Below are positions 6,159-62,799 of a stretch of 64,000 nt of DNA, one piece after another. The stretch comes from Allolobophora icterica (Eukaryota > Annelida > Clitellata > Crassiclitellata > Lumbricidae): assembly GCA_963556255.1 (NCBI GenBank), contig OY744612.1, positions 21,541,532 through 21,605,531 on the forward strand, read 5' to 3'. The notes under the pieces were generated by a model. That model was not told the DNA's origin, did not search any database, and saw only the letters and a list, made by a program, of their open reading frames with translations. Position numbers and translations under genes: made by a program. How positions within the stretch are numbered: the first letter of the stretch is position 1; each line of letters starts with the position of its first letter.

Positions 6159-9100
6159 ATGAACGAAGTTCGAATTGACGCTGAACATGTCTGTGGAAAA
6201 ACGGACGATCGTTGTCTTCCACCTGGAAAACTCTACCACGTTTTCTTTTCTTATTGCTATGAAGACCAAGATTGGGTGAAGGAGATGGTCGATAGACTGG
6301 AATCATGGGAGTATGGCTTCAAGTGTTGTTATGCGGACAGAGACTTTGACCTTGGGATTCCAGTGTTTCAGAACATAACGAAATGCATCCATACCAGTAA
6401 GAGAACGGTCATCGTGATGTCTCCGGAATTTCTCCAAAGTCCTTGGTGCAGCTACGAAACACGAATAACACTGGAACTGGACTTGGATACGAGACAGCGT
6501 CTACTCATTCCAGTTATGCTTCGAAATTGCAGGGTTCCAGACTACATTGGGAGACTGACTTACATGGAAGTGCAGAATGAACATTTCTGGGGACGATTTG
6601 TGGCAGCGATTGCAGAAGACGGTAAGCGTATCTCCAGCAGCCGATCACGTGATGTAGGTTAATAAGTGAAGCCATTCTAATTGCTAAGCCCCACTTAAAT
6701 AAGGTAGGAATGAAAAATAAAGTAACACGTGAGCTGTGAGAAAATAAAAGAGAGTGTAACACACTTTTGCATCTTATTATCACTACTTATTCTGTAACAC
6801 CATAATTATGCCTAATTCTGCCGCAGAGTCTCTTTTGACAAACCCAAACCTGGACGCAGGAAGATGGTTGGGTGGTAGGGTGCAGACACTACCAGCAGTA
6901 AACTAACAGTTCGACATAAATCGATTATCTGATGGATAAGTAAAACAATTAACCATGAAGCACGGACAGTAATGATGATGACAATGATGATGATGACAAT
7001 GATGATGATGACAATGATGATGATGACAATGATGACGATGACGATGATGGTGATGACATATTTGGGTTGGCTAATACGCGGAAAGTCAAGCAAGTGGAGA
7101 TGTGCGATCAAATCAGGTGCATAGAAGTTAGCCTACGAATATGTGAAGGAACGAAGGATTCCTTAACAATGCCATTAATTTATTTATTATCATTGAATAC
7201 CATCATTGAATTCTATCACTGAATTGCTGGAATTAAATTATAAGTGGTAGTAGAGTCATCATATAAATATCAAGATCCTAATTTGATTCTCGGTACATGT
7301 ATGTTCATGTATAGGGCCCTATATTCAAAATTATTTATCTTACGTTAGGAGTTAGTCATCATTAATTAATTTGCTTGGCAGCATATGAGTTTATTTTTTA
7401 AACGTTTATTTTGCATATGTTAATTACAGATTCACCCAGTTCGATGGTACAAGCAACTATTGGTAGTTCGGCAATTATGGCAGGAGTCCCATTCCAGTAC
7501 AACCCATGTAAGTAATATTCTTTTGCATGTTTAGAAACCCTGTTACCACTTAATCCCATGTTAGTCCACTGGTTAGTTTAATCGGAATGAAATTAATACT
7601 GTGACTCCATAAGGATATCATATATTTAACAGCCATGATAGTAGGACGTACCTATAAAGTATGTCACAGTCCTAATTCGTCTAGGTTTTACGATTAAAAT
7701 GTGTAGCAACTTGCAATGCCAATATTAAGTTCACATATCTGATATCCTCGTAAGAACAACGTCCAAAACATCTGGGCTAAAGAAATCACAGATGTTTAAG
7801 TGGACCTACTTACTGAAGGATTACACGAGGATTATCAAAGAACGTAAAACACTAAGTATATTATGATATAGTAGTAGTAGTAGTAGTAGTAGTAGTAGTA
7901 GTAGTAGTAGTAGTAGTAGTAGTAGTAGTAGTAGTAGTAGTAGTAGTAATAATAATAATAATAAAGTAATAATAAAATTAATAATCACACCCCGGAGACG
8001 AGTACGGCATTCACCAAGCTTAAGTACACTGCTGTCATAGTTTCTTAGAGCCTGAAGGATTTTTGTACCTCGGGCGTAAAAAAATAATCATTATAATTTA
8101 AATTTATTTATTTATTATTAATATAATAATAATAATTATTATTATTATTAGTAGTAGTAGTAAATTATTTCGTGTCTAACGCATAAGGCATCAGCTGTTG
8201 TCGCACCAAAACCAGGCCATAATCTGGTCAGTATCCAGAAGATCAGAACGTTAAGATAGAGATTCAGCCTATGGTGGACAAGCAAGTTGAAAGAGGTTAG
8301 TTTTAAGTCGAGAAAGAAATGACAAGAGACTGAGTATAGCGAACAAATACAGGGAGAGAGTTCCAAATCATAGGTATACCAACCGAAAAAGTTCATTCAC
8401 CGAGAACAGTTAGGCCTATTCTTTTAGGTAACATTTAGCCAGAGAAAGACAGCCAGGTGACCTCGTTGGATAATTGTAAATCTGGGAATAAGGACTGGTT
8501 TTAAGCAATATGACCGGCCAGAGTTCAAAGTTTAACAGAAAATGAGCCCCAATGTGAAACCAATATTTTGCTGAATAGGAAGTCGATGCAAAGATTTAAG
8601 CACGTGGGTTGAGTGGTGATATATCACATCATAATATTAAAACTAATACACTCTAAGTATATCATTTACCTATAACCATTACAACTTGATATTATTCTTG
8701 CCGTGCACACCAAATTCATCCGTGTTATCGGCACAGCGGTGAATTTTAGCGGATAACGCGTATCACATAAGATTTATATACCATCGATGATTCATAAGGA
8801 AATAACGCCGCAGGCTCCTATGCTTATCATTAGTCTTAGGCTGCTTATCACCCCACAGGTTTTCCATTCCAAAATGTAAGTCTCGTCTGTTCAGTAGTTC
8901 CTGCACTAGTCAATTCGATCCTCCGCCTTCGAAGCTTACTCGTCCTCAATGAAACCCGCCTTAGCAGCCACTCTGTTTCCTCTCTCTGGTCTATCTGGCA
9001 ACCGGACTAGGACCTCAACTGGACATCAATCTCTGGACTACCCCTCTGATACGACGCAGAGCTCGTGAATAAGCTGGTTTACTACGCTTAGCTTTTGAGT

Positions 9101-62799: not shown

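Follow-up and report, generated by a model that had tools for sequence, protein, structure and literature searches.

TMEM268, a little-studied vertebrate membrane protein, has been reported to steady integrins in phagocytes. The human protein possesses helices at residues 104-126 and 130-152 inside a DUF4481 domain (PF14800) extending over residues 38-328, and binds ITGB4 via residues 104-342; no TIR domain is named for it in the accessible portion of that report (PMC6748091). In another study (PMC11169502), residues 1-152 of TMEM268 bind the C-terminus of CD11b (1105-1152), and the protein is reported to shield CD11b from breakdown in lysosomes; mice without it show weaker adhesion of phagocytes, less complement-dependent phagocytosis and poorer clearance of bacteria. 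TIR proteins are classed by the carrier of the TIR domain, and a 2008 survey of amphioxus, in the portion available, recorded 28 TIR domain combinations, 20 of them amphioxus-specific (PMC2575513). The present analysis concerns a stretch of 64,000 nucleotides from Allolobophora icterica (contig OY744612.1, positions 21,541,532 to 21,605,531 of the forward strand; hereafter the window), where three tandem genes each appear, with very little doubt, to encode a TIR domain fused to a TMEM268-like DUF4481 region. A carrier of the TMEM268 hairpin type was thus found in the window lineage and in amphioxus, with tandem copies in the window, and the fusion would link TMEM268 to innate immune signalling.

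Exon-by-exon rebuilding yielded genes at 6159-26691, 32156-44617 and 51589-62799 (copies 1 to 3), each with nine coding exons on the plus strand. Conserved blocks were located by comparison of copy with copy, and exon ends were placed at splice sites common to the copies. The spliced products comprise 471, 467 and 468 amino acids respectively, copies 2 and 3 being 82% and 79% identical to copy 1, and share a layout of N-terminal TIR domain, two-helix membrane segment and cysteine-rich tail. Exon 1 (463 nt; 6159-6621, 32156-32618 and 51589-52051), supported by splicing and Pfam, contains the ATG and the whole TIR domain and ends in a phase-1 donor, from which exons 2-9 continue in frame up to the stop codon with entry phases of 1, 1, 0, 0, 0, 0, 0 and 0 in every copy. 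An initial annotation of this DNA had claimed a TIR exon joined in frame through a phase-1 donor to eight exons, products of 467-471 amino acids and a final stop at 62799; all three genes were rebuilt in this form and the last stop codon ends at that position.

The remaining exons, placed by splicing, are given for copies 1, 2 and 3 in turn. Exon 2, the linker, occupies 7430-7507, 33626-33703 and 54183-54260, the joining in copy 3 being the same as that in a related protein, P0016 (relatives are cited below by such numbers). The DUF4481 region begins in exon 3 (9163-9275, 34299-34411 and 54946-55058), and both membrane helices lie in exon 4 (11047-11313, 39322-39579 and 57771-58031), which is also supported by hydropathy and whose two ends in copy 3 correspond in the alignment to the gap of an amphioxus isoform. 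Exon 5 (21763-21879, 40859-40975 and 59002-59118) carries a 10-residue block and exon 6 (23838-23873, 42271-42306 and 60225-60260) the block read as LIFYYYDW in copy 1. These are followed by exon 7 (24594-24641, 42749-42796 and 60746-60793), exon 8 (25762-25836, 43984-44055 and 62134-62205) and exon 9 (26473-26691, 44399-44617 and 62581-62799), the last encoding the cysteine-rich tail. Introns were GT-AG in 23 of 24 cases, the exception being intron 7 of copy 1, with a GC donor (GC-AG), and GTRAG, with a background frequency of 0.19% per base, followed 15 of the 24 exon ends. The start of exon 6 was set at the AG common to all three copies; an alternative upstream AG in copies 1 and 3 is AT in copy 2.

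Pfam TIR as well as TIR_2 matched all copies far above cut-off, TIR_2 scoring 73.3, 74.6 and 74.9 bits in copies 1, 2 and 3 (cut-off 28). DUF4481 scored 37.2 bits in the whole protein of copy 2 and 33.4 bits in that of copy 3 (cut-off 25); with the TIR part removed, the scores were 21.6, 39.1 and 35.5 bits in copies 1, 2 and 3. Two main hydropathy peaks were present in the exon-4 region of each copy, corresponding to the two adjacent membrane helices that had been claimed earlier. TMEM268 likewise has two adjacent helices within its DUF4481 domain and a C-terminal block rich in cysteine; the window proteins were classed, from their sequence, as DUF4481 homologues with a different architecture, not as TMEM268 itself, since a TIR domain is present. 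Certain features of this reconstruction are weaker. DUF4481 in whole copy 1 scored 19.8 bits, below the cut-off, and the expectation that profile searches would recover both domains therefore held for TIR in all copies and for DUF4481 in copies 2 and 3 but failed for DUF4481 in copy 1. Additionally, the acceptor of exon 3 is without a pyrimidine tract and exon 5 has a weak donor (GTATCY); related proteins are continuous across both of these junctions in the alignment.

Approximately 5.8 billion proteins were searched with copy 3, yielding 11 relatives, seven of which (P0001-P0006 and P0008) cover at least 95% of the query at 34-42% identity. Searching with an alignment yielded 18 relatives, the additions including P0012-P0015 (95-99% coverage) and one amphioxus protein, P0018; P0008 was absent from this second list. 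The DUF4481 half as query returned nine relatives, each of them from amphioxus and annotated with both domains. The nine amphioxus records include the isoform pairs P0023/P0026 and P0024/P0027 and so represent fewer genes than records. Eleven unnamed proteins align across both halves of the fusion, and precomputed Pfam matches to DUF4481 exist for six of them (P0001, P0003, P0006, P0012, P0014 and P0015). A fresh Pfam scan of 23 aligned relatives detected TIR in 22 and, at E up to 0.01, DUF4481 in 18. In amphioxus P0020 the DUF4481 match spans profile positions 2-293 of 293. The DUF4481 halves of the window and amphioxus proteins are distant, at 22-37% identity across 25-99% of the length.

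Separate TIR and TMEM268-like genes are unlikely because both halves occur within a single polypeptide in related proteins. P0001 has both on a contig of 1,841 bp, compared with the 11-21 kb spanned by the window genes. P0016, from a 928-bp contig, matches 35% of copy 1 at 73% identity and reads from the TIR directly into the exon-2 sequence GSSAIM..PPFQFNP and then RMYTQ, an ending as expected with intron 2 retained, the exon closing with C and the intron opening with GTATGTA. All 24 aligned proteins extending as far as the linker retain its proline, with NP at this place in P0001, P0016, the three window copies and eight of nine amphioxus proteins. In the alignment, amphioxus isoform P0027 is without the membrane exon, bounded by window junctions 3 and 4, and isoform P0026 without the stretch from junction 6 to junction 8; four of the eight intron positions appear from the alignment to be common to the window and amphioxus, junction 4 falling in a gap-rich stretch where the amphioxus match hinges on the alignment. 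Taken together, these data make it nearly certain that TIR and DUF4481 are fused in one protein. A single old fusion would be the simplest reading; the two domains may also have been joined independently in the window lineage and in amphioxus. P0027 is annotated as an isoform without the whole membrane exon, and a soluble TIR-DUF4481 form may exist.

The initial annotation knew of no description of this fusion. None was found in the literature searched, most subscription papers lying outside its coverage; DUF4481 occurs there in a single paper, and in none together with TIR. The architecture does, however, sit unremarked in the nine amphioxus database records. Two of these, P0018 and P0021 of Branchiostoma lanceolatum, are named TLR2 yet have TIR and DUF4481, with no leucine-rich repeat (LRR) among their listed Pfam domains, an apparent misnaming; the other seven are labelled 'uncharacterized'. 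The amphioxus records with gene models represent testable genes for the question of whether TMEM268 and an immune adaptor have a common descent. No TIR-less TMEM268 was returned by the protein search with the DUF4481 half, which needs shared exact words and is thus weakly informative on this point.

Variation among the relatives was apparent at both ends of the protein and in the membrane segment. Two separate hydropathy peaks were missing at the threshold used in five of 18 relatives (P0008, P0022, P0023, P0024 and P0025), and hairpin helices were seen in the predicted models of P0014 and P0017. The P0017 model, with a mean predicted local distance difference test score (pLDDT) of 67.7, returned no PDB matches for the DUF4481 part at E 0.001 or better, and a profile of this part against PDB sequences gave a single weak match (E 0.12) to a pox membrane protein; confidence in the model is moderate and no new fold is claimed. 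An extra hydrophobic stretch near the C-terminus, potentially a third helix, occurs in amphioxus P0023 (506-524) and P0025 (450-468) and was not seen in window copies 1-3. An N-terminal extension places 68-188 residues ahead of box 1 in the 25 relatives, of 27, in which this box is recognisable, and the motif LTxx(D/E/N) lies within the first 150 residues in 12 of the 16 unnamed proteins P0001-P0016 and in none of nine from amphioxus. With the 25 extension segments as queries, tblastn gave no convincing match in the window, the best (E 0.009) lying on the opposite strand and containing a stop; the window genes either are without the extension or would contain it in an unrecognised form. The longest contig is equal within the unnamed pairs P0005/P0008 (17,672), P0006/P0012 (28,607) and P0014/P0015 (12,541), as also within the amphioxus pairs P0018/P0021 and P0022/P0025, which suggests, from the sizes, that these are neighbouring copies.

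By sequence, the closest neighbours of the window TIR are Toll receptors, oyster TIR-STING and MyD88. Among Toll-like receptors (TLRs) it is nearest to TLR15 and TLR2 and close to TLR1. TLRs have an LRR ectodomain, one helix and a C-terminal TIR, whereas the window proteins have an N-terminal TIR, two helices and no Pfam match to LRR, and membership of this group was rejected. In oyster TIR-STING (PDB 6wt6/6wt7), likewise from an invertebrate, the TIR is joined to a second signalling module; 6wt6 ranked second (1.2e-14) among PDB sequences, is 30% identical to the window TIR in the fold alignment, and has a CC-x-A-x-RDF stretch in common with it. Its partner is a STING domain, according to the PDB entry name, whereas that in the window is DUF4481. 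No Pfam match to the STING family was found in the window proteins at E up to 1, and this membership was also rejected. The window TIR probably has a fold of the same class as those of MyD88, MAL/TIRAP and TRAM, and the same membrane-recruiting job is proposed for the window proteins. MAL and TRAM reach membranes by lipid binding and myristoylation; we know of no DUF4481 anchor in MyD88, MAL/TIRAP or TRAM.

Tandem duplication gave rise to the copies, and the greatest differences among them lie in the membrane exon and in exon 8. Ratios of non-synonymous to synonymous divergence (dN/dS) between copies were 0.19-0.25 for the TIR exon, 0.15-0.23 for exon 3 and 0.23-0.25 for exon 9, with values of 0.80-1.03 for the membrane exon (exon 4) and 1.06-1.47 in all three pairs for exon 8; exons 5 and 7 reached 1.77 and 1.03 in one pair each, and exons 2-9 pooled gave 0.48-0.62. 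The TIR exon and the final exon are under purifying selection and the membrane exon diverges fast. Rounded synonymous and non-synonymous counts for exon 4 versus exons 1 and 9 gave Fisher p values of 0.0039, 0.0031 and 0.018 in the three non-independent pairs. The membrane segment was less alike than the TIR in 12 of 12 overlapping pairs of paralogues or close relatives, and the least alike of six segments in nine of them. Relaxed constraint on helix residues would account for this divergence equally as well as diversification. Positive selection is not claimed for the membrane exon, where dN/dS is near neutral, or for exons 5, 7 and 8, with just 2-16 non-synonymous changes. Synonymous divergence was 0.09-0.16 in the TIR exon versus 0.18-0.30 in exons 2-9, and the lower value may point to gene conversion among the TIR exons of the copies.

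From the reports on TMEM268 and integrins we infer a tethered adaptor through which TIR signalling would reach receptors of this type. As a whole, the best explanation is a scaffold-type TIR adaptor tethered to the membrane, with a chance of being correct that falls a little below even; the initial annotation had likewise inferred an innate-immune effector or adaptor role. The topology and mechanism are offered more tentatively still. Each gene would give rise to one membrane protein with a cytosolic N-terminal TIR, a linker and a TMEM268/DUF4481 module, the latter comprising a membrane hairpin of two helices and a cysteine-rich tail in the cytosol. The DUF4481 part would place the protein at the plasma or endosomal membrane and might grip the tails of integrin-like phagocytic receptors, as reported for vertebrate TMEM268. 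Clustered there, the TIR would then be able to draw in further TIR proteins, whether like MyD88 or of its own kind, and so start innate signalling. The TMEM268 binding data fit both ends of that protein being cytosolic and, by analogy, would fit a cytosolic TIR in the window proteins.

A clearly less probable role is that of a negative regulator or decoy, whose TIR, without a BB-loop proline, would occupy partners without signalling and damp Toll or integrin-linked responses at the membrane. The proline is missing from its usual place in all three window copies and in 20 of 27 proteins compared, and purifying selection on the TIR is compatible with any partner-binding role. The same proline is, however, present in seven of the 27 (P0008 and six from amphioxus), its loss therefore not being a family trait, and the box-3 FW is retained in two of three window copies. 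More doubtful again is an NAD+-cleaving effector, in which the TIR, held at the membrane, would be an enzyme comparable to SARM1 or the TIR effectors of bacteria and be activated by clustering. A glutamate at the SARM1-type catalytic position is found in 26 of 27 proteins compared, including all window copies, but is lost in P0002, and such a glutamate occurs in more than 70% of all TIR domains without necessarily tracking activity, as stated in the accessible part of a report that also gives the SARM1 BB-loop motif as E(R/K)LEAG (PMC7075850). The BB loop of the window TIR reads RDFDLG or RDFEIG (RDFxxG) in place of this motif, on which basis SARM1-type membership was rejected, and the nearness of the TIR to TLR, TIR-STING and MyD88 sequences also argues against such an enzyme.

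It is unlikely that TIR-DUF4481 represents an old chordate or deuterostome protein coupling phagocytic (integrin-type) receptors directly to TIR signalling, with vertebrate TMEM268 its TIR-less descendant or sister. If true, TIR-less descent would explain the role of TMEM268 in phagocyte adhesion and bacterial clearance, and the membrane hairpin, with its fast rate of change, would either be in conflict with shifting partners or be tuned to them. The weakest alternative, that two adjacent genes were wrongly joined and the TMEM268-like one starts at a conserved ATG just 5' of exon 3, has in its favour an in-frame start codon in each copy, 13 nt ahead of exon 3, the poor exon-3 acceptor and P0017, a DUF4481-type prediction without TIR (20.8 bits, under cut-off), but is highly improbable in view of P0001 (both halves) and P0016 (junction 1) on contigs too short to contain the introns, the joint presence of both halves in 11 unnamed and nine amphioxus proteins, and the conserved linker proline. 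The ATG codons concerned (9150, 34286 and 54933; MRF-x-DFHN) might also serve as the start of a TIR-less product transcribed from a different promoter.

The tandem array proposed by the initial annotation was borne out by the three full genes and by part of a further copy upstream, of which exon 7 (979-1026), exon 8 (3458-3529) and exon 9 (3867-4085, with a CLCQFVES tail and stop codon) lie on the plus strand with open frames and splice sites common to the other copies. Exons 1-6 of this copy were not seen in the window, and likeness to copy 3 begins only at 958. Scans of the window with Rfam (gathering scores) and for tRNAs gave no matches. Direct repeats at 45628-46611 and 49769-50758, 99.3% identical, flank a minus-strand open frame (46897-49743) that by eye resembles gag, protease and integrase; this looks like a recent long terminal repeat (LTR) retroelement between copies 2 and 3, its coding part judged by eye. 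Long open frames at 17721-20780 (plus strand, inside intron 4 of copy 1) and 28270-31143 (minus strand, between copies 1 and 2) resemble reverse transcriptases by eye, and insertions of such elements may account for the uneven spacing. Long simple repeats, consisting of an 8-bp unit and TAA/AAT, CAG/TAG and TTA runs, occur at 21973-22286, 17308-17615, 25940-26130 and 37414-37607.
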